Part shown: positions 15,996 to 28,097 of the stretch, one piece after another
Layout of the letters: each line of letters opens with the position of its first letter
Numbering within the stretch: the stretch's first letter is position 1
Notes under the pieces: generated by a model
What the model was told of the DNA's origin: nothing
The model's input: only the letters and a program-made list of their open reading frames with translations
Databases searched by the model: none
Source: Pseudomonadales bacterium
GTDB taxonomy: Bacteria; Pseudomonadota; Gammaproteobacteria; Pseudomonadales; Azotimanducaceae
Direction: 5' to 3'
DNA: 32,550 nucleotides
Assembly: GCA_030728785.1 (NCBI GenBank)
Contig: JANQYP010000006.1
Location: 1 to 32,550, forward strand
Position numbers and translations under genes: made by a program

Positions 15996-16976
15996 ATGAC
16001 AGCAAAAGGTAACGCCCTCGAGGGCAACGGTATTCCTGATATATTTGTTGATGTCCGCGAGACCTTTGGTCTTGATATCGATTTGAAAGTACCGGCATTC
16101 TCCCGCAAGAGTGATCATGTGCCACAGATAGATCCAACCTATCTGTTTAATTATGAAACGACCCTGGCGATCCTCGCCGGTTTTGGGCATAACCGCCGGG
16201 TGATGATCCAGGGCTATCATGGCACGGGTAAGTCCACCCACGTCGAACAGGTCGCCGCGCGGCTCAACTGGCCCTGCATCCGTATTAACCTCGACAGTCA
16301 CGTCAGCCGTATTGACCTAGTGGGTAAAGACGCCATTGTCCTCAAGGACGGCAAGCAGATTACTGAATTCAGGGAGGGTCTGTTGCCGTGGGCGTTGCAG
16401 CGTGCCTGCGCGCTGGTGTTCGATGAGTATGACGCAGGTCGTCCGGACGTCATGTTTGTCATTCAGCGGGTGCTGGAAGTTGAGGGTAAGCTGACATTAC
16501 TCGACCAGAGCAAGGTAATCAGTCCGCACCCCTCATTCCGTATGTTTGCTACTACCAACACCATTGGCCTGGGTGACCCTTCCGGCTTGTATCACGGTAC
16601 ACAACAGATTAACCAGGGCCAGATGGACCGTTGGAATATTGTCACCACCCTGAACTACCTGTCCCATGAAAAAGAAACAGATATTGTCAGTGCCAAGCTG
16701 CCTGACATAGAGCGTAAGCGGTTGGCAAACATGGTGTCCGTTGCCGAGCTGACTCGCCAGGGTTTCGTTAACGGTGATATTTCTATCGTCATGTCGCCTC
16801 GAACGGTCATCATGTGGGCAGAAAACGCCCGTATCTTTCACGATTATGGCTTTGCCTTCCGTCTGACATTCCTCAACAAGTGTGATGAGACTGAGCGGTC
16901 CATTGTCGCTGAGTATTACCAGCGCTGCATGGGTGAAGAACTGCCGGAATCAGCCTCCCGACTAGTCCTCGGTTAG
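15996..16976 (+). CDS. cobS: CobS-type AAA+ subunit of cobaltochelatase
   Basis: A 326-residue AAA+ ATPase closely resembling CobS, which with CobT forms the chaperone motor that drives cobalt insertion by CobN into hydrogenobyrinate diamide. Landmarks: [19 protein letters not shown], Walker [10 protein letters not shown] at 73-81, the CobS-typical [20 protein letters not shown] segment, Walker B ALVFDE at 139-144, and a sensor-like [20 protein letters not shown]. Length equals the family norm (about 330). It starts with an ATG, 150 bp from the divergent phosphatase gene, and precedes cobT by 37 bp. No cobN or other corrin gene is in the window, so the clients are either elsewhere or different. 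Confidence 0.92.
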
Positions 16977-17002
16977 ACCCAGTACCGCGATACTGTCGCG
17001 AT

Positions 17003-17008
17003 GGAGGA
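17003..17008 (+). promoter_or_regulatory. Strong ribosome site that decides the TTG start of cobT
   Basis: GGAGGA ends five bases before a TTG at 17014. The ATG at 17001 just upstream is in another frame, so the TTG is the best cobT start. Confidence 0.7.
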
Positions 17009-17013
17009 AGACC

Positions 17014-18858
17014 TTGTCGGGTGTTGAAGATGCAACAGCTATATTCAAGGAAGCAGTAACATCGACCATGCGCGCCATCTCCGGCAATGCCGAGTTGATG
17101 GTGAGTTTTGGTCGTGGCAAAGCCTATATCCAGGGTAACCGGGCGCGCATTCCTTTGCCTGATGAGGCGATTAGCGCGGCGGATCTGGCGACTTTACGTG
17201 GCACTGCGGATCGCTTTGCCCTTGATTTACGCTTCCATGATGAGGCCTATCACAGTCGTCAGCAGCCAGAGACTGCCGCAGCACGCGAGGTTTTTGACGC
17301 GGTTGAGCAAGCCCGCGTTGCGGCTATTGGCTCTTATCTGATGCGCGGTGTGGAGGATAATCTGTCTGCCCTGCTGGAGCAGGACTGCATTGCCCGTGGA
17401 TATGACCGGGCAGAATCGCAACAGGACGTCAGCCTTGGTGATGCTGTTGGCCTGTTGGTCCGGGAGAAAATGATTGGCCCCTTGCCGGCCGCTGCAGCCC
17501 GGGGTCTGGCACCCTGGCGCGAAAAGATCGAAAGCCAGCTTGGGGCGCAGCTGCAGCACCTGCCAGAGATCATGTATGACCAGGCGGAATTTGCCCGTCT
17601 GACCCGCAAGATGCTGCATGACCTTGGCCTTAGTGACGACTGGGGTGAGGACAGCGGTGAGGGTGAGGCTGCCGAAGATTCACAGGAACCCGAAGAGGTA
17701 GAGTCTGAGGCCGGCGACGAGACTTCAGAGCAGGAAATGTCCGGTGATGCTGACATGAGCGACGCCATTGAAGGTGAGGTGCCGGTAGATGTGGACGCCA
17801 TGGATATGGCCGAGGCCGAGGGTGACCAGGACGATGCCGGCGCACCACCGGATTCAGGCGCGGAACCCAGTTGGCTGCGGCCCCGTGACAGCGACTACAA
17901 AGCCTACTCTGTGGCCTTTGACGAAGTGGTTTTCGCTGACGAGTTGTGTGAGCCGCTAGAGTTGGATCGCCTGCGTGGTGTGCTCGACAAACACCTGCAG
18001 AATTCCCAGGTGATTATCAGTAAGCTCGCCAATCGCCTGCAACGAAAATTGATGGCGCAGCAGAACCGTACCTGGGAGTTTGACCTTGAAGAAGGCATGC
18101 TGGATACCTCGCGCCTGACAAATATTATTATTGACCCTTTCCACCCGCTGGCCTTCAAGCAGGAAAAGGACATGAAATTTCGGGATACAGTGGTGTCCCT
18201 GCTGATTGACAGTTCCGGGTCTATGCGCGGCCGTTCTATTACCATTGCCGCCATGTGTGCCGATATTCTTGGCCGAACGCTTGAGCGCTGCAACGTCAAG
18301 GTGGAAATTCTGGGCTTTACTACCCGTGCCTGGCGCGGCGGCCAGTCTCGGGAATTGTGGCTGCAGCAAGGCAAGCCAAGCCAGCCGGGGCGGCTGAATG
18401 ATCTGCGCCACATCATTTATAAGTCAGCAGACATGCCCTGGCGCCGGTCACGACGCAATCTTGGCTTGATGATGCGCGAAGAGTTGTTAAAGGAAAATAT
18501 CGATGGCGAAGCGCTGTTGTGGGCCCATAACCGGATTGTCGGCCGGCCCGAAGACCGGCGTATTCTGATGGTGATTTCCGATGGCCTGCCTGTTGATAAC
18601 AGCACGCTGCTGGTGAATCCCAGCAACTATCTTGAGCAGCACCTGAAATACGCCATTGACCAGATTGAAAATCATTCACCTGTGGAACTGGTTGCTATAG
18701 GTATTGGCCACGATGTCACCCACCATTATCGGCGTGCCGTGACCATTACTGACGCAGAACAGTTGGGTGATGCCATGACTGAGCAGTTGGTGGGGCTGTT
18801 TGACGAGGATCTGAACCGCAAGCTGGGACCCATTAAGGCCGGCGCAGCGATTAGCTGA
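17014..18858 (+). CDS. cobT: CobT-type VWA subunit of cobaltochelatase
   Basis: A 614-residue CobT protein, partner of the CobS AAA+ ring. Three regions are visible: an N-terminal helical domain (1-205), a very acidic Glu/Asp/Gly/Ser-rich linker (about 207-280), and a C-terminal von Willebrand A domain whose metal site DSSGS is at 399-403. The segment [15 protein letters not shown] followed by EGEALLWAH-like residues ([20 protein letters not shown]) is typical of CobT. The TTG start is supported by a perfect Shine-Dalgarno. It probably forms an operon cobS-cobT-NUDIX, the NUDIX gene starting 15 bp after its stop. Without cobN nearby, a role in corrin synthesis is plausible but not shown. Confidence 0.92.
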
Positions 18859-19438: not shown

Positions 19439-20389
19439 CTACTCAAACAAATGGCAGTTAACCGTATGTTTGGCCGCCACCACGGTGGTTTTGGGTGTGA
19501 CTGAACGGCAATGACTCATGACCTTTGGGCAGCGGTCGGCGAAACGACAGCCGGCACCAAGATTGATGGGTGAGGTGATCTCGCCAATGATGGGTACATA
19601 TTTGTGGTGTCGTTCGGTCTCGGGATCGGGTTCCGGGTTGGCTTCAATCAGCAGTTGGGTGTAGGGGTGTTGTGGATTGAAAAACACGTCGTCCGCTGGC
19701 CCCGACTCAACCAGCGAGCCCAGGTACATCACCGCCATGCGATCTGATACATAGCGCACCATAGAAAGGTCGTGGGCAATAAACAGCAGGGTCAACCCCA
19801 GGTCCTGCTTGAGCTGCTCGAGCAGATTAACAACCTGGGCCTGGACAGAAACATCCAGGGCAGAAATAGGCTCATCACAGACCACAAACCGTGGCTGGAT
19901 AATCATTGCTCGGGCGATGCCAATACGCTGGCGCTGGCCGCCGGAAAACTCGTGTGGATAACGCGACATATGGTCAGCATTGAGTCCCACTTTCTCCAGC
20001 CAGAGCGCCACCTGGTCTTTGACCTCGCTGCGTTTGGTCTGGCCCTGGATCAACAAGCCCTCGCCAACAATATCGAGCACTGTCATACGCGGGTTCAGGG
20101 ACGAGTAGGGATCCTGGAATATCATCTGCAGTTCTTTGGAGTATTGCAGGTGATCAGCCGCGGTAAATTTGGCCGGCAGCAATTGGCCGTTATAGGTGGT
20201 GGTGCCACTGGTGCGCGAGTGCAGGCCGATCAGGGCCTTACCAAAGGTCGACTTGCCCGAGCCACTTTCGCCTACCAGACCAAGAATTTCATTTTCTTCA
20301 ATCTGCAGGCTGACGCCGTCCACAGCATGCAGGGTCTGCTTGCGGCCAATCTGGAAATGCTTTTTCAGGTCTTTGGTTTCAATCAGCAT
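19439..20389 (-). CDS. oppF: Oligopeptide ABC importer, ATP-binding subunit OppF type
   Basis: A 316-residue ATPase of the peptide/nickel ABC importer family. Walker A GESGSGKST is at 40-48, the Q-loop Gln92 is in FQDPYSSLNP, the signature FSGGQRQR is at 148-155, and Walker B VVCDEP is at 169-174. The C-terminal oligopeptide-transport domain carries cysteines in GAGCRFADRCP and two more near the end, which in related proteins bind an iron-sulfur cluster. The frame extends upstream to 20509, but those residues lie inside oppD and do not match the family; the ATG at 20389 has GGAG at correct spacing and gives a normal N-terminus ([12 protein letters not shown]). It overlaps oppD by 11 bp and ends the opp operon. 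Confidence 0.92.
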   Translation of the reverse strand: MLIETKDLKKHFQIGRKQTLHAVDGVSLQIEENEILGLVGESGSGKSTFGKALIGLHSRTSGTTTYNGQLLPAKFTAADHLQYSKELQMIFQDPYSSLNPRMTVLDIVGEGLLIQGQTKRSEVKDQVALWLEKVGLNADHMSRYPHEFSGGQRQRIGIARAMIIQPRFVVCDEPISALDVSVQAQVVNLLEQLKQDLGLTLLFIAHDLSMVRYVSDRMAVMYLGSLVESGPADDVFFNPQHPYTQLLIEANPEPDPETERHHKYVPIIGEITSPINLGAGCRFADRCPKVMSHCRSVTPKTTVVAAKHTVNCHLFE

Positions 20390-21410
20390 GATTGGCTCCG
20401 GTCTGGTACAGGCGCTTGTTAACGGGTGCGCCTGCGTGTTGGAGCCAGCAGCGGGCCTGGTGCGTGGTGTCGCCGGCAAGCAGATACTCTGGTGGCTGCT
20501 GGTGTTCACAGACCTTCATGGCATAAGGGCAGCGAGCAAAATAACCGCAGCCAACGGGTGGATGAAACAGGTCCGGCGGGCTGCCGAGGATGGGCGACAG
20601 CTTTTTGTCGCGGTCGCCCTTGTTGGAGGGCATGGCCTCTTTCAGGCCAAGGGTATAGGGGTGGCTTGAGCGATAAAAAATATCATCAACACTGCCAGAT
20701 TCGATGATCTGCCCGGCGTACATGACCGCTACTCGGTCCGCCATTCTGGCAACAACGGCCAGGTCATGGGTAATGAGGATAATCGACATGTTTTCGGTGC
20801 GTTGTAACTCCGCCATCAGTTCCAGAATCTGCGCCTGAATGGTCACGTCTAGCGCCGTCGTGGGCTCGTCAGCCATCAGTACGGCAGGATTACAGGCCAG
20901 GCTCTGGGCAATCATGGCACGCTGCAGCATGCCGCCGGAAAACTCAAACGGATACTGTTTGGCGCGTTTGGCGGCCTCGGCAATTTTGGTTTTATCGAGC
21001 AGTTGTACGGCCAGCGCGGAGGCGTCTTTGTAGCTCAGGCCGCGATGTACCATCAGGGTCTCGGAGATCTGGTCACCGATGGTCATGGTGGGGTTCAGGG
21101 ACGTCATGGGGTCCTGGAAGATCATGCCGATCTCGACCCCGCGGAACTGGTTCGCCTGCTTTGCCGGTAAGCCGAGAATATCCTTACCATTGAGTCGGGC
21201 GCTGCCACCGGTGATTTTGCCGGGCGGCATAGGAATGATGCCCATAATGGCCTGCACCGTGACCGACTTGCCGCAGCCAGACTCACCAACAATGGCCAGA
21301 GTCTCGCCTCGATTGACATGAAAGCTGACGCCACGGACGGCTTTGACAGTACCACCATAGGTGGCGAACTCGACGCTGAGGTTGTCTACCTCGAGTATTC
21401 TATCCGACAT
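20379..21410 (-). CDS. oppD: Oligopeptide ABC importer, ATP-binding subunit OppD type
   Basis: A 343-residue ATPase, the second motor of the importer. Walker A GESGCGKS is at 42-49, Q-loop [10 protein letters not shown] near 98-107, and the signature reads FSGGMLQR, the form usual for OppD/DppD proteins. Walker B is VLMADEP and the switch histidine lies in LITHDLAVV. The C-terminal part ([22 protein letters not shown]) has the four-cysteine pattern of OppD/DppD proteins. The protein is slightly longer than average through its last 25 residues, which overlap the beginning of oppF. It begins 6 bp after oppC. Confidence 0.93.
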
Positions 21411-21416
21411 GATCGT

Positions 21417-22841
21417 TCACCTTGAGCGCATGCGAGAATCCAGCGCCTCGGTAAGGCCGTCTCCCAGCAGGTTGAATGCGAGGACTGTGACACTGATAAA
21501 GGTTGCCGGGAAAATTAATTCATGGGGGTGGCTAAGCATGGTTTTGACACCCTCATTGCACATGGAACCCCAGGACGGGGTGGGGGGCGCAACGCCCATG
21601 CCAATAAATGACAGGAAGGCCTCGGTAAAGATCGCCCCCGGCACCGCAAAGGTCAGGCTTACCAGAATGACCCCCATGGTATTGGGCAGTATGTGGCGCA
21701 GCACCAGATAACTGTTTTTGGCACCTAACAGGCGCGCAGCGTCAATGTAACCGTTGTTGCGAATCTGCAATACCTGGCCGCGTACCAGGCGGGCAGTGCC
21801 GGGCCAACTGAGCAGCACCAGGGCGATGAGCATGGGTATGATGCCACTTTCGCCTGGCCCAATACCAAAGGCAATCTTGAACAGGATCATAAACAGCAGA
21901 AACGGCAGGGCAACGACAAAGTCAGCAAAACGCATCAGCGTGGAGTCGAGTTGGCCGCCAAAATAACCGGCAAAACCACCATACAGAATGCCGATCAGGA
22001 CAAACAGAAAAGGAGCGCAGATGCCAATAAACAGCGAAACCCTGGCGCCTTCCATCAATCGGGCCAGCATGTCGCGGCCCAGATAGTCGGTGCCAAAGGG
22101 GTGAAAATGCAATGTCAGGCTGGCGCCTTCCGGCAGGTCGCTTGCAGCGCTGATCAGGCCGCGGGCGGTGGCCTCGGCGCGGGTGATGGCGATGGTTGGG
22201 ATTACTTCAAGGGTGACATACTTATCGCCCTCATCAATACCGTCGGTGGGGACAACAGAGTAATAATACTTTCTGGCTTCCAGGTTCAGGCGATCCTCGT
22301 AGCTAATTTCGTTGCCGCCCATGGTGGTGGCCAGGGGCAGGCCGAGATCATTCAGCCCCTCCGGTAGGTGGTTATTGCGATAGATGCTGTAGCCGCCAGC
22401 GCCGACGACCGGATTCCAGCGCAGGCGTATTTGCTGAGTTGTTGCCAGGCCAATGGTCTGCAGGCCGTCCGGTGCCGGGATAACGTCAGGGAATGTGTCA
22501 GGTTCGCTGGGGAAGTCATCGAGAATAATCGGCTGCCAGCGCTCATAGGGTGCGGCAAGCAGGGCCGTTTTGGGCCAGGATGGTGCCTGGGAAATTTGGT
22601 TCAGGTCCTGTAATGACGGATCTACTTGCCACACCAGCGGCCCGGCCAGAGTAAACAGCGCCAGAAAAATCACGATATACAGGGAAATAATAGCTCGAGT
22701 ATTTTTCTTCAGACGGATCCAGGCATCCTCCCAGTAGGACAGGGATGGCCGGGATATCTGCTCAACACTCAGGTTATGAGACGCCGCTGTAAAGTCTGGA
22801 GTTAGTTCCGGCGTTAATTCTGCAGTTAGGGTTGTAGCCAT
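21417..22841 (-). CDS. oppC: Oligopeptide ABC importer permease OppC type with inserted fibronectin-III-like domain
   Basis: A 474-residue permease; normal OppC/DppC proteins have about 300. Residues 1-50 are a cytoplasmic N-terminus with a Thr-Pro-Glu-Leu repeat, and 51-71 form the first membrane segment. The ordinary permease core resumes at HPFGTDYLGRD (247-257), with five more membrane segments and the EAA-loop region GYIDAARLLGA (364-374). Between them lie about 155 extra residues (90-245). Within these, 120-215 read like a fibronectin type III domain: P-x-P-x-G-L at the start, RLRWNPV, GAGGYSIYR, ISYEDR and YYYSVVPTD. By OppC topology the loop is periplasmic, facing the peptide-binding protein. 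The gene abuts oppB and precedes oppD by 6 bp. Confidence 0.9.
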   Translation of the reverse strand: MATTLTAELTPELTPDFTAASHNLSVEQISRPSLSYWEDAWIRLKKNTRAIISLYIVIFLALFTLAGPLVWQVDPSLQDLNQISQAPSWPKTALLAAPYERWQPIILDDFPSEPDTFPDVIPAPDGLQTIGLATTQQIRLRWNPVVGAGGYSIYRNNHLPEGLNDLGLPLATTMGGNEISYEDRLNLEARKYYYSVVPTDGIDEGDKYVTLEVIPTIAITRAEATARGLISAASDLPEGASLTLHFHPFGTDYLGRDMLARLMEGARVSLFIGICAPFLFVLIGILYGGFAGYFGGQLDSTLMRFADFVVALPFLLFMILFKIAFGIGPGESGIIPMLIALVLLSWPGTARLVRGQVLQIRNNGYIDAARLLGAKNSYLVLRHILPNTMGVILVSLTFAVPGAIFTEAFLSFIGMGVAPPTPSWGSMCNEGVKTMLSHPHELIFPATFISVTVLAFNLLGDGLTEALDSRMRSR

Positions 22842-23774
22842 TTATTGCAGCCTCACACGGGGGTCAATAAAGCCGTACAGGATGTCCACCAGAATGACCA
22901 TAAGTACTAGGAAGGCACCGAAAAATACCGTGGTGCCCATAATGACGGTGTAGTCCAGTTGTTGTACTGCCTGAACAAAATAGCGCCCCAGGCCGGGTAT
23001 GGCGAATACTAGTTCGACCACAAAACCGCCCGTTGTGATGGCGGCGATCTGCGGCCCCAGAATAGTGATCACCGGCAGGATGGCATTGCGCAACTGGTGT
23101 TTGAAGAAGATCCGCAGGGGTGACAGACCTTTGGCCTTGGCGGTCTTGATGTAGTCTTCGTTAATGACTTCGAGCATGGACGAACGCATCAGGCGGGTCA
23201 GCAGTGCCATGGTGCTCAGGCCCAGTACCAGGGATGGCATGAGCATATGCGAGATGGTGCCCCAGCCAGCAACTGGCACCAGCGAAAAGCCCAGCGCACT
23301 GTTGATGTTGACCAGTAGCAGCTGGCCCAGCGCCGCAAAGACAAAGCTCGGTACCGAGATGCCGAGAATCACCATAAACATGATGATAATGTCCGGCAGG
23401 CGGTTGCGATAAACGGCTGTCAGGGCGCCCCAGACGACCCCGCCGATGGTGGCAAAAAAAAGGGCCAGGACACCAAGGGTCGCGGAGACGGGAAAGTGGT
23501 CACGAATGATATCGTTAACCCGGCGGTTCTGTTGGGTAAACGAGATGCCAAAGTCACCCTGCAGCATGTTGCCCATAAAAATCAGGTATTGCTCGCCGAC
23601 GGGTTTGTCCAGGCCGTATTTGATTTCGAGATTCTTGCGAATTTCCGCAGTTACCGCCTTGTCATTCATAAGGGGGTCACCGGGCACCATGTGCATGGCA
23701 ACAAACGTGGCAGTGGCAATAAACCAAACGGTTATGACGCCGGCCATCAGACGCTTCATGGTGTACGCTAACAT
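22842..23774 (-). CDS. oppB: Oligopeptide ABC importer permease OppB type
   Basis: A 310-residue inner-membrane permease of normal size. The N-terminus MLAYTMKRLMAGV matches the ML-x-Y-x-x-K-R-L pattern of OppB proteins, which supports the ATG at 23774 over the internal ATG at 23759. Next come the first membrane helix, the periplasmic motif PGDPL, about five further membrane segments, and an EAA-loop DYIKTAKAKGLSPLRI near 210-225. FAIPGLGRYFVQA near the C-terminus is typical. Its stop is directly next to the oppC start. The leader contains three copies of a CATATG-bearing repeat and short upstream reading frames, one of which ends inside the second codon of oppB. Confidence 0.92.
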   Translation of the reverse strand: MLAYTMKRLMAGVITVWFIATATFVAMHMVPGDPLMNDKAVTAEIRKNLEIKYGLDKPVGEQYLIFMGNMLQGDFGISFTQQNRRVNDIIRDHFPVSATLGVLALFFATIGGVVWGALTAVYRNRLPDIIIMFMVILGISVPSFVFAALGQLLLVNINSALGFSLVPVAGWGTISHMLMPSLVLGLSTMALLTRLMRSSMLEVINEDYIKTAKAKGLSPLRIFFKHQLRNAILPVITILGPQIAAITTGGFVVELVFAIPGLGRYFVQAVQQLDYTVIMGTTVFFGAFLVLMVILVDILYGFIDPRVRLQ

Positions 23775-23974: not shown

Positions 23975-25588
23975 TCAGTCGCCCTTCTCAAGCACTTGCG
24001 CATGGGTGAAGTCCGGATCAGCGCCAACCACACGCCTGACAACCCCACGCAGGTTCGGATGCATCAGGTAAATCACACCCTGCTCATATTGGGGCAAGAT
24101 CACGGCATCGTCGAATAGTATCTGCTGCAATTTGCCCATGGCGTCCATTCTGACGGTCACGTCAGCACTGTTCATGGCAATGCGTACCCATTTGTCATAT
24201 TCAGGGTTGGAGTAGCGGCCGCGGTTATTCATGTTCCATGAGGTAAACAGATCACCAAAGGTCATGACATCATCAAAGTCAGGACCCCAGCCCGCAGCGA
24301 CAATATCAAAGTCGCCAGCGGTCATTTTTGCCAGACGCTGCTTGAATGTCTGAACGTCAATTTTCAGGTCCAGCCCCAGCTTGGCTTTTAGCACACCCTG
24401 CATGTATTCAGCCTGTTTTGCCGCAGTAGGGCTGTCACCCACCAGTAACACCAGGGGCGGGATTTGTTCAACGCCCAGCTCAATCCTGGCTTTTTCCAGA
24501 TACTCGCGGGCGAGCACCAGGTCGAGGCTTGCCTCCTGTGGTCGATACTCCTGCCGGAACTTGTCAGTCTTGCCATTCAGCCACACGGGAAACAGGCTTT
24601 TGCCAGGCAGATTGCCCGGTGTGGCGAGTACCTTGTTGACCATCTCGTCCGGGTCAAAGACATGCTGGATAGCCCGCCGTAGGTTGATATTGTTAGTGAC
24701 CCGGCCCGCGCGGAAATTGTATTCGAGATAGAAGACCGAGCCTGTGGTAAAACGTCTGATACGGAGTTTCTGGGCCAGAGCATCTTTATAGGTCTCGCCG
24801 TCGAGGCTGGTATGGACAATTTTGCCGTCAATAAACAGGTTCAGCCGGGCGCGGGTATCAGCGGTAATATAATCAGCATTGATGGCGTTCAGGGTGATGT
24901 TTTCCCGGTCCCAGTAATGCGTATTTTTGACCATGTGCAGGGATGCGCTGTGGACCCAGTCGGTGATCATAAAAGGGCCGTTGTAGAGCAGGTCGGTGGC
25001 GTCGGCGCCATAACGACTGCCCTTAGCGGCGAGGAATTCACCCTTAACGGGAAAATAGGTGACAAATGCGACAAGTTTTTCGAAATAACCCGTGGGGCGC
25101 TCAAAACGGATATGTAATGTGTGCTCATCAAGCGCTTTAACCCCCAGTTCGGCGGGGTCCAACTCTCCCTTATTGATAGCTTCACCATGCAGCAAGGGGT
25201 AGAGGATAAAGGCGTACTCTGAGGCTGTTGCCGGTTTTAAGACATTTTGCCAGGCCGTGATAAAGTCATCTGCCGTCACCGCTGAGCCGTCACTCCAGCG
25301 AGCATTCTTGCGCAGCCAGAAGGTCGCTTCCGTATCAGTGACTTCCCAGCGTTCTGCGACACCGGGAACAATATTGCCGCGCCGGTCATAGCGGGTCAGG
25401 CCTTCCATGACATGACCAAGGGTGAAAATGCTCACCTGATCAGTGGCTTTCATCCCATTCAGTTGCGGTGGTTCCTGGTTCAGGGCAATGGTAATGGTCT
25501 GGCTGGCGAAGTCTGCAGAGGTGACTTCGGTCTGCGCCATGCCCAGGCAGGGCAGGCACAGCAGGATAGCGGCTAGGCAGCTTCTCAT
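23975..25588 (-). CDS. oppA: Oligopeptide-binding periplasmic protein (SBP family 5)
   Basis: A 537-residue solute-binding protein of the OppA/DppA family (family 5), normal length. Residues 1-18 form a signal peptide (MRSCLAAILLCLPCLGMA) with a likely signal peptidase I site after GMA; no lipobox is present. Recognisable family segments are LNQEPPQLNGM, the GLTRYD motif, WSDGSAVTADDFITAWQ, LYNGPFMITDW and KNTHYWDREN, and the late GWGPDFDD aspartate loop. Sequence style favours di- or oligopeptides over nickel or sugars, but this is not certain. It is the first gene of the leftward operon oppA-oppB-oppC-oppD-oppF; the 200-bp spacer before oppB holds two repeat arrays that may allow separate control of the more abundant binding protein. 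Confidence 0.93.
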   Translation of the reverse strand: MRSCLAAILLCLPCLGMAQTEVTSADFASQTITIALNQEPPQLNGMKATDQVSIFTLGHVMEGLTRYDRRGNIVPGVAERWEVTDTEATFWLRKNARWSDGSAVTADDFITAWQNVLKPATASEYAFILYPLLHGEAINKGELDPAELGVKALDEHTLHIRFERPTGYFEKLVAFVTYFPVKGEFLAAKGSRYGADATDLLYNGPFMITDWVHSASLHMVKNTHYWDRENITLNAINADYITADTRARLNLFIDGKIVHTSLDGETYKDALAQKLRIRRFTTGSVFYLEYNFRAGRVTNNINLRRAIQHVFDPDEMVNKVLATPGNLPGKSLFPVWLNGKTDKFRQEYRPQEASLDLVLAREYLEKARIELGVEQIPPLVLLVGDSPTAAKQAEYMQGVLKAKLGLDLKIDVQTFKQRLAKMTAGDFDIVAAGWGPDFDDVMTFGDLFTSWNMNNRGRYSNPEYDKWVRIAMNSADVTVRMDAMGKLQQILFDDAVILPQYEQGVIYLMHPNLRGVVRRVVGADPDFTHAQVLEKGD

Positions 25589-25690: not shown

Positions 25691-27142
25691 CTAGCTGGCG
25701 GTCTTCAGCAGGTTTGAGACCACCCGCTCAAGGTGCTGCAGGGAGTTGCAGACCTCGGTCTGGTGGCAGGCTGCGGCATACTTTTTCATTTCTGCGTCAC
25801 CGACAGTCCAGCTGGAACGCGGTTCAGGATTCAGCCAGATGACGCGCTTACTCTTGTCATACATTTCTCGCAGGACCTCGGCCCGGGCGTCACCATAGTT
25901 ATTGCGGGCATCACCGAGGATAATAATGGTGGTTTTCTTGTCGACATCGTCCATGCAGTGGTTCTTGAAATCCTGGAACATGCGGCCGTAGTCCGTCGAG
26001 CCATTGCCATAATCCCGCATGGTTTTAGACAGTGCATCTTCCAGGCTGCTTTGTTCAAACAGTTTGGTCACCTCGCCCAGGTCAGATGAGAACGCAAAGG
26101 AGCGGGCCTTGGGAAGGATGCTGGCGAGGCTGTAGAGGAACATCAAGAGGAAACGTGAGTAATTGCTCACTGAGCCGCTGACATCGCAAATACACATGAT
26201 CTTGGGTCGATCAACCTTGCTGGCCTTCCAGCGCAGGTCAAAGAACATGCCGTCATACTGCATGTTGTTGCGCAGGGTTTTGCGCACATCTAATTGGCCG
26301 CGTTTGTAGGTCTTGCGACGTTTAGAGTGGATGGAGATCAGCTTCTTCGCCATCTTCAGGACAAGTTCCTGAACATCCTTGAAGTTGCGTTTTTCAAGGT
26401 TGGAGAGTTTGACTTTTTTCAGCAGCTCTTCCCGCAGTTGTTTGCCGGTTTCATCAGCATGGAGGAAAAACTGCCGTTCAACATAGTCGCGGACCCGCTC
26501 GCGGAGCTGGTCGCGGGCGCTCTTGAGCTTACCAGCAAGTTGCTGCTCCGGTCTGGCGCCCACACCCTGCAGGTCGCTGATCTCATCCTGCAGCTCCTTG
26601 AGGCCCATAGTATCCATGATCTTGCGGGTATACAGGCCCTTCTGGGTGAAAACGACTATCTGGTTGACCTCAACCTTTCTGCCGGCCTCTGCCATCTGGA
26701 TCATCAGCTCGGCGCGACTGCCCTCAAGGAGCAATTTGCCCAGCTCGGAGGTGGGCGCCAGCCCCTGGATTTCTTCCCCTTCACTCTGGCCGCCGCCCTG
26801 GCCGCCACCTTGGCCACCTTTACCAGCCTGGGGAGCGCTGTTGTTATCCGTGTCAAAGTCATCGTCATTGGCGCCCTGCTGAGTTGCGGCTTCATTGCCA
26901 CCTTCAGCCGTGGACGGTTTGAACTTGTCAGCGGTGAAAAAGCGGTTGAAACACTCGTCGAACGCCGCTTTTTCGTCAGTCGTCTTGGCCAGGACCATGC
27001 CGAGAGAGTCTTTCAGGAAGCGCCGGTCAGCATAGCCGACAAGGTCCATGCACTGCATGGCGTCAAGAGTCTCCGCCGGGGAGACCTTGAGTTCTGCAGT
27101 GCGCAGTGCCTTGACAAAATCGACGAGGGTCGTGTCTACCAC
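25691..27142 (-). CDS. VWA-domain protein of the CoxE type
   Basis: A 483-residue protein with a C-terminal von Willebrand A domain resembling CoxE. The metal-ion site is complete: DVSGS at 320-324, Thr383 in GSTDYG, and Asp411 in LGDARNN. The N-terminal 75 residues look like the CoxE N-terminal segment; residues 80-125 are a low-complexity Gly/Gln/Asp linker; 185-285 is a charged helical, probably coiled-coil, region. CoxE works with the AAA+ protein CoxD in maturing the Mo-Cu site of CO dehydrogenase, but no CO dehydrogenase genes are seen here, so the client is unknown. The start is a GTG one base after the stop of the AAA+ gene, a strong sign of coupling. Confidence 0.88.
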   Translation of the reverse strand: MVDTTLVDFVKALRTAELKVSPAETLDAMQCMDLVGYADRRFLKDSLGMVLAKTTDEKAAFDECFNRFFTADKFKPSTAEGGNEAATQQGANDDDFDTDNNSAPQAGKGGQGGGQGGGQSEGEEIQGLAPTSELGKLLLEGSRAELMIQMAEAGRKVEVNQIVVFTQKGLYTRKIMDTMGLKELQDEISDLQGVGARPEQQLAGKLKSARDQLRERVRDYVERQFFLHADETGKQLREELLKKVKLSNLEKRNFKDVQELVLKMAKKLISIHSKRRKTYKRGQLDVRKTLRNNMQYDGMFFDLRWKASKVDRPKIMCICDVSGSVSNYSRFLLMFLYSLASILPKARSFAFSSDLGEVTKLFEQSSLEDALSKTMRDYGNGSTDYGRMFQDFKNHCMDDVDKKTTIIILGDARNNYGDARAEVLREMYDKSKRVIWLNPEPRSSWTVGDAEMKKYAAACHQTEVCNSLQHLERVVSNLLKTAS

Positions 27143-27143
27143 G

Positions 27144-28097
27144 TTACTGGTTGCCTTTTAGTGCCTTGTTGGTAAGGGTCTGTAGTTCCGACTCAACGGA
27201 CTCGATATCTTCCTGGAATTTCAGAATCACGTTTAGAGTCTGGCGCACCAGGTCCGGATCCAGGGACTCAGAGTGCAGCAGGATCAGTGTTCTGGCCCAG
27301 TCAATTGTCTCGCTGATGGCGGGAACCTTCTTCAGGTCCATTTCGCGGAGTTGCTGAATAAAGGTGACCAGTTGGTTACGCAGGTTTTCGGCCAGTTCAG
27401 GAACACGAGCCTGGATAATCTGCTTTTCAAGAGCGGCATCGGGAAACGGAATATACAGGTGCAGGCAGCGGCGTTTTAAGGCATCGCTGATCTCACGGGT
27501 ATTGTTACTGGTAAGAAACACCAGAGGCTTGCGATCAGGGTGGGCCTTGATGGTGCCAATTTCGGGAATGGAGAGTTGGAAGTCCGAGAGCATTTCCAGT
27601 AACAGTGACTCAAATTCGTGGTCTGACTTGTCTACTTCATCAATCAGCAGCACGCAGCCTTCTTTGCTCTTCAGGGCTTTGAACAGTGCCCGCGGTTCAA
27701 GGAAGTCTTCGGAGAAAAAAATATCTCCAAACTCATGGAGTTTAGAGACGGACTCGGCCAGACCTTTGGCCCCGTCCAGAATTTCGCCGAGAGTTTCTTT
27801 GAGGACTTGGGTGTACAACAACTGCTTGCCATATTTCCATTCATAAATGGCTTTGGACTCATCCAGGCCTTCATAACACTGCAGGCGCACACACTCTATG
27901 CCAAGCATTTCGGCGGTGGTTTTCGCCAGTTCGGTTTTTCCGACCCCAGGCGGGCCCTCAATCAGAATTGGCTTTTCCAGGTGGTAGGCGAGAAACACCG
28001 CCGTGGCAATTTGCAGGCTGCAGATGTAGTTGAGCTGTTCAAAATTGTTTTTGATGACCTCAACGCTGGCCAGTTTGTCTCCGTTCTTCAGTGTCAC
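27144..28097 (-). CDS. MoxR-family AAA+ ATPase (CoxD-like)
   Basis: A 317-residue AAA+ ATPase of the MoxR group. Walker A is GPPGVGKT at 48-55, Walker B CVLLIDE at 148-154, the sensor-1 asparagines are in LTSNNTRE (196-202), and the arginine finger lies in DALKRRCLH. MoxR proteins pair with VWA proteins to remodel or activate metalloenzymes and other complexes. This one is fused in operon to the CoxE-type VWA gene, one base apart. The start is a GTG at 28097 with AAGGGA six bases upstream. It differs clearly from the CobS protein encoded 11 kb away, so the window holds two separate AAA+/VWA systems. Confidence 0.9.
   Translation of the reverse strand: MTLKNGDKLASVEVIKNNFEQLNYICSLQIATAVFLAYHLEKPILIEGPPGVGKTELAKTTAEMLGIECVRLQCYEGLDESKAIYEWKYGKQLLYTQVLKETLGEILDGAKGLAESVSKLHEFGDIFFSEDFLEPRALFKALKSKEGCVLLIDEVDKSDHEFESLLLEMLSDFQLSIPEIGTIKAHPDRKPLVFLTSNNTREISDALKRRCLHLYIPFPDAALEKQIIQARVPELAENLRNQLVTFIQQLREMDLKKVPAISETIDWARTLILLHSESLDPDLVRQTLNVILKFQEDIESVESELQTLTNKALKGNQ

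Follow-up and report, generated by a model that had tools for sequence, protein, structure and literature searches.

We confirm the original prediction of an OppC permease with a long insert in its first periplasmic loop, and support at the level of the fold that this insert contains a fibronectin-III (Fn3) domain. The gene is part of the window, i.e., the whole stretch of 32,550 nucleotides analysed here. The insert does not result from chance, since it is under purifying selection, is modelled with a confident fold and is widely conserved. In short, a permease of a familiar type bears a loop domain of a new type.

The permease is the product of the open reading frame at 21417-22841 (minus strand), which starts with ATG and translates to 474 residues, as stated originally. 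The interval 22107-22574, to which the extra domain had been assigned, translates in frame to residues 90-245. The features of the gene and its operon are as follows.

21417..22841 (-): oppC, permease with insert; 474 residues
22581..22739 (-): OppC_N domain, residues 35-87, contains TM1 (residues 48-70); from Pfam and model
22104..22580 (-): insert of the first periplasmic loop, residues 88-246; from Pfam, models and loop lengths
22191..22490 (-): predicted Fn3-fold domain, residues about 118-217; from models and structure alignment
22332..22346 (-): residues 166-170 (LGLPL), a candidate for a contact surface; from conservation
22104..22190 (-): residues 218-246, linker at the C-terminal end of the insert, including a short helix; from the full model
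21420..22103 (-): normal permease core from HPFGTDYLGRD on, residues 247-474; from Pfam and structure alignment
22842..23774 (-): oppB, partner permease; from Pfam
23975..25588 (-): oppA, peptide-binding protein of family 5 whose start resembles a signal peptide; from Pfam and hydropathy
20379..21410 (-): oppD, ATPase; from Pfam
19439..20509 (-): oppF, ATPase; from Pfam

The oppF start listed here results in a 131-base overlap with oppD; translation more likely begins at an internal ATG close to 20389.

Gene order, domain content and core fold are those of an OppC-type importer permease. oppC lies between oppB and oppD, while oppA and oppF complete an oppABCDF operon. Pfam reports OppC_N at residues 35-87 (E 7.9e-15; 54.9 bits vs. 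a curated cut-off of 23.9) and BPD_transp_1 at residues 284-472 (E 1.3e-33; 116.8 bits vs. a curated cut-off of 26.4). OppC_N and the company of oppA, oppB, oppD and oppF are shared with OppC/DppC relatives, and so is the core fold. Across 13 rows of solved structures (E. coli OppBCDF 8z21, E. coli DppBCDF 8z1w, M. tuberculosis OppABCD 8j5q) we obtained Z 22.6-25.7, where the top four rows, all E. coli OppC/DppC, align 266-269 residues at Z 25.1-25.7 and rmsd 2.6-2.7. From prediction, conservation and operon context, we assign the protein as OppC of an OppABCDF peptide importer, for which oligopeptide transport is predicted. The best NCBIfam match is Opp3C (293.6 bits vs. a cut-off of 450), and no named OppC equivalog is reached; given how far this score is below its cut-off, the OppC of the window is divergent. 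In contrast to the solved relatives, whose chains have about 290-300 residues, it contains about 155 extra residues, with the predicted Fn3 fold, between TM1 and TM2. The operon is flanked by two AAA + VWA pairs, i.e., an AAA ATPase with VWA_CoxE upstream (25691-28097) and CobS with CobT downstream (15996-18858), and these genes are retained in many but not all related loci.

The extra residues are located where they had been predicted. TM1 forms a helix at 48-70 in the full model and HPFGTDYLGRD begins at residue 247, such that 180 residues separate the end of the TM1 core from GTD, compared to 20-35 in 20/29 OppC rows without Fn3 domain. This agrees with the original figure of about 155 additional residues. 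The segment is also distinct from the normal OppC N-terminal domain: OppC_N ends at residue 87, and the 29 non-Fn3 OppCs are either short-looped or otherwise inserted. OppC topology places the first loop on the periplasmic side, so that, together with the OppC core fold, a periplasmic location of the insert is expected.

The AlphaFold2 models of both the full protein and the insert alone argue for an Fn3 fold. For the full protein, built from a 77-row alignment, the mean pLDDT is 86.8, with values of 89-97 per ten-residue block across residues 81-240, while the insert alone yields a pLDDT of 94.2 and a pTM of 0.87. The full model contains strands at 138-141, 150-156, 171-173, 180-183, 192-199 and 209-213 as well as a short strand near 128, which are predicted to form a seven-strand sandwich of Fn3 topology. 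Among the 50 Foldseek matches listed for the insert model there are almost only Fn3 domains (best E 1.6e-4). Likewise, the 50 VIA-align matches listed (Z 9.9-10.8 over 82-96 residues) are nearly all Fn3 domains or monobodies, the best three rows showing Z 10.8 at 1.8-2.6 Å over 85-91 residues. These alignments cover residues 34-133 of the insert model, i.e., OppC residues 118-217, where the full model places its beta sandwich and close to the 120-215 claimed initially. Searching with the full model, Fn3 domains are found from rank 23 on, below OppC/DppC and interleaved with other ABC permeases. The models therefore suggest that the Fn3 domain folds independently within the TM1-TM2 periplasmic loop.

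On the level of sequence families the picture is different. Pfam reports no family between residues 87 and 284 of the window's protein and does not match PF00041 (fn3). For 29 homologous inserts, fn3 is reported once (1/29, E 0.2) and nothing is above the cut-off; neither is anything in NCBIfam for residues 88-246. Since the segment is covered by no model of Pfam or NCBIfam, annotation pipelines overlook the insert. Of the two findings that were originally said to refute the domain, a missing beta sandwich and a segment that is normal in most OppCs, neither was obtained. DUF4992 and GH85_C were discarded as identities of the insert, both being below their Pfam cut-offs; in other proteins, GH85_C is also matched together with fn3 on their Fn3 stretches. 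Searching the sequences of the PDB with a profile of the 29 inserts (E up to 10) yields five matches, namely the Fn3-like protein 3mpc (E 0.0079), a similar stretch of 5g56 (E 0.14) and a short stretch of three 963-residue chains (E 0.71). Taken together, models and profiles support an insert that is Fn3 at the level of the fold, with weak profile similarity in addition, and not a member of the PF00041 sequence family.

Known Fn3 domains (fibronectin, tenascin, the bacterial 3mpc) share with the insert the predicted seven-strand sandwich (Z up to 10.8), the tryptophan of strand B and the tyrosine pair of strand F. In contrast to these, the insert is below the Pfam fn3 cut-off, shows its own conserved LGLPL and FEDRL stretches and is embedded in a transporter. 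A tryptophan combined with a tyrosine pair is a hallmark of the Fn3 core, and the signature residues named in the original prediction are indeed present (W142, Y151, Y154-R155, Y192, Y194). Much of the conserved sequence consists of residues expected in an Fn3 core. W142, R155, G167 and D183 are found in 96/96 aligned long OppCs, Y194 in 95/96, P169 in 91/96 and Y192 in 89/96; G167 and P169 belong to the LGLPL stretch. We also compared substitution rates, using rough estimates (dS > 1). Here, the insert shows dN/dS values of 0.14-0.21 in four usable comparisons (the fifth is saturated), while the core shows 0.024-0.033 in five; dN of the insert exceeds that of the core about 5- to 10-fold. That is, the insert is under purifying selection, with a clearly weaker constraint than the core. 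The locus sets A3/A4 comprise the window and 76 of 80 loci (without the near copies L080, L091 and L093 and the incomplete L111); L026 was excluded from set A1 by the motif filter.

To describe the distribution, we distinguish taxonomic levels. Among relatives' genomes, the long OppC is found in 38/58 (some cut by contig ends), i.e., in 35/37 from family f1, to which the window belongs, and in 3/21 from other families of the order. Within the order, 66/390 genomes show insert-profile matches at E up to 1e-6. Of these, three belong to frames above 2500 residues and hence probably to different proteins, while one (G1046) comes from a broken gene. Among the 62 remaining matches, 19 intact loci were inspected along with the broken one, and all 19 intact ones are OppC with opp neighbours (19/19). 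The broken locus, L177 (G1046:C12), is otherwise complete for oppABCDF, its long oppC frame being either a pseudogene or an assembly error. Apart from this gene, no loss of the insert is seen within the sampled long clade.

At class level, 34/369 genomes match at E up to 0.01, with full-length matches only in the window's own genome. At phylum level, 17/398 genomes match, four of them in full length and all four from family f224. This family, which is outside the window's class, carries the Fn3-OppC operon (loci L064 and L152), either by transfer between classes or by a mislabelled bin; a stretch from f224 agrees exactly with a record titled Magnetococcales bacterium DC0425bin3. Ten weak partial matches (nine from the class, one from the phylum scan) were given to Pfam, which reports fn3 at E up to 0.1 for 6/10, with 2/10 above the fn3 cut-off and 4/10 without any fn3 match. 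Within genome_contigs, at least 573 relatives were confirmed; the best 80 were kept, all of which span the insert (80/80) and which are mostly titled as Gammaproteobacteria or Pseudomonadales MAGs. Plasmids yield 3821 matching records, all below 60% identity; six of these span 80% or more of the query, with identities of 28-31%.

Trees of the OppC core, i.e., computed without the insert, separate long from other OppCs by one branch. This holds for a first, quick tree of 46 long and 29 other rows, which came with long-branch warnings and from which L152 was excluded for too few filled columns. It also holds for a second, more careful tree of 47 long and 24 other rows, where the branch has support 100/100 and is present in 100% of 200 bootstrap trees (bootstrap not settled); here, L152 and five long-branch short rows were excluded and 1/4 f224 sequences included. 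The other rows nearest to the long clade are the OppCs of Bacillus, Ilyobacter and Ketogulonicigenium. Judged from these unrooted sequence trees, the insert state appears to have changed once, by one gain or, depending on the root, one loss.

Upstream of the Fn3-oppC, oppB is found in 79/80 loci (L111 starts inside oppC) and oppA in 78/80 (L111 and L157 start too late), while oppD follows directly downstream in 78/80 (L081 ends too early, and oppD is displaced in L156). An OppB adjoining an Fn3-OppC is 64-91% identical to that of the window, compared to 27-41% for those adjoining short or otherwise inserted OppCs (no OppB match in L193). The Fn3-OppC is thus the mark of a subfamily of Opp systems that have an OppA of their own. 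One locus shows a tandem pair of oppA-like genes upstream of oppB (L097:3673-7002).

We also classified the starts of 100 OppAs with a crude hydropathy rule, which yields 42 anchor-like, 40 signal-peptide-like and 18 unreadable starts. By eye, L122, L123, L136, L145 and L147 of the signal-peptide-like group look anchored and L160 of the anchor-like group is doubtful. Judged by the rule, about half of those Fn3-OppC operons whose OppA start is readable (42/82) seem to encode an OppA with an N-terminal TM anchor that is not cleaved off, which is to our knowledge unusual for a Gram-negative binding protein. Starts that look anchored include those of L095, L096, L100, L102, L112, L117, L136 and L141. 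The window's own OppA start resembles a normal signal peptide. The lipobox pattern is found in 5/92 OppA starts, some of them probably false hits. With the five by-eye loci moved, the mean insert length by kind of OppA is 156 (n=44) vs. 164 (n=21), a difference that is confounded by ancestry.

The first OppC loop hosts other inserts as well. While 20 of the 29 non-Fn3 rows show the short spacing given above, 9 have different inserts, likewise located between TM1 and GTD..GRD. Their total loop lengths are 96-100 residues (L191, L193, L194, L197), 108-113 residues (Ilyobacter, Ketogulonicigenium, Phyllobacterium, Sinorhizobium mexicanum) and 142 residues (Rhizobium gallicum), i.e., 96-142 compared to 151-181 in Fn3 rows. 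The respective loci are L191, L193, L194, L197, L198, L199, L201, L202 and L204, where L194 (G000:C26) is a second OppC of the window's own genome. Two of the other insert types were compared with the Fn3 profile, resulting in hhalign probabilities below 1% (a weak test, based on single sequences). The first loop of OppC seems to accept insertions in general.

A large periplasmic domain within an importer permease is known from MalF, which belongs to another permease family and whose P2 domain has an Ig-like fold and sits between other helices. The likeness proposed for the insert is one of function and does not imply homology; the window's insert is located between TM1 and TM2, and the MalF rows in our structure comparison span the permease core only. 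P2 is absent among the Foldseek and VIA-align matches listed for the insert model, which is uninformative. This large periplasmic loop of the maltose importer is reported to interact with the binding protein (PMC3150292 and works cited there). The arrangement found here had been thought undescribed. This stands insofar as no description of an Fn3 domain in an importer permease was found in the literature searched, which lay mostly outside subscription journals; it is qualified by MalF P2 as a precedent for a large periplasmic loop and by the other inserts that the OppC loop accepts.

Our tentatively preferred reading, which falls somewhat short of an even chance, is that the Fn3 arm docks or steers OppA in a way analogous to MalF P2. 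The domain would form a lateral arm at the importer's outer mouth, which would contact OppA, keep it close to, or aligned on, OppB/OppC and help to couple OppA opening to the transport cycle, as MalF P2 does for the maltose-binding protein. Its acquisition (or its loss elsewhere, if the root lies differently) would have been a single event, followed by inheritance with a particular OppA, OppB, OppD and OppF. We favour docking because of the position at the outer mouth, the co-inheritance with OppA, the MalF P2 precedent and a distance correlation. The latter was computed from those 87/99 loci that contain all of OppA, OppB, OppC and OppD, of which 75 were left once near copies had been removed. 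The Fn3 part shows a partial r of 0.34 with OppA (core, OppB and OppD held constant), 0.21 with OppB and 0.22 with OppD; for the whole insert, the values are 0.33, 0.27 and 0.26, respectively. All three pass the permutation test alike. The OppA signal is thus weak and unspecific, since the cytoplasmic control OppD correlates too. Docking is furthermore disfavoured by the apparent TM anchors of about half of the readable OppAs, which would need no recruiting arm. The same applies to the conservation, much of which falls on expected Fn3 core residues, to the high dN of the insert compared to the core and to the different position of MalF P2 among the helices.

The partial correlation with OppB (0.21-0.27) would also suit a structural brace, i.e., an Fn3 domain that packs either on OppB or on the periplasmic face of OppC itself and helps the permease pair to assemble or remain stable, with OppA untouched. 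In line with this, the domain is joined to both TM1 and TM2 and shares its inheritance with OppB. Given that the OppA correlation is slightly higher (0.33-0.34) and that the solved short-loop OppBC relatives assemble without an insert, we consider such a brace unlikely. A passive insert, which entered once, was tolerated and is kept merely because it is folded and harmless, would explain the elevated dN/dS compared to the core as well as the loop's tolerance of several other inserts. It is rather improbable in view of the purifying selection on the insert, the four residues invariant in 96/96 sequences and the lack of loss in the sampled long clade except for one broken gene. Fn3 domains are frequent in secreted carbohydrate-active enzymes of bacteria, and such enzymes are among the sequence matches of the profile (5g56, 7f7q). 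This is in line with an Fn3 domain that binds cell-wall material, polymeric material or an envelope protein and thereby positions the importer. We regard this as rather improbable, too, as besides oppABDF there is no constant neighbour gene, the AAA/VWA genes being present in many loci but not in all.

Opp importers are well studied, and their solved structures have short outer OppC loops. With a clade-wide Fn3 arm, nature has provided a clean experiment on how type I importers recruit and orient their binding proteins. In a broader and more doubtful reading, the loop would be a general plug-in site where unrelated small domains, differing between lineages, adapt each permease to its particular binding protein. 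In the present case, the Fn3 arm and an OppA that is TM-anchored in about half of the cases would make up a pre-assembled Gram-negative importer. If the loop is such a site, its type may predict which OppA suits which permease, and the Fn3 domain would be a handle for swapping and testing the specificity between substrate-binding protein and permease.
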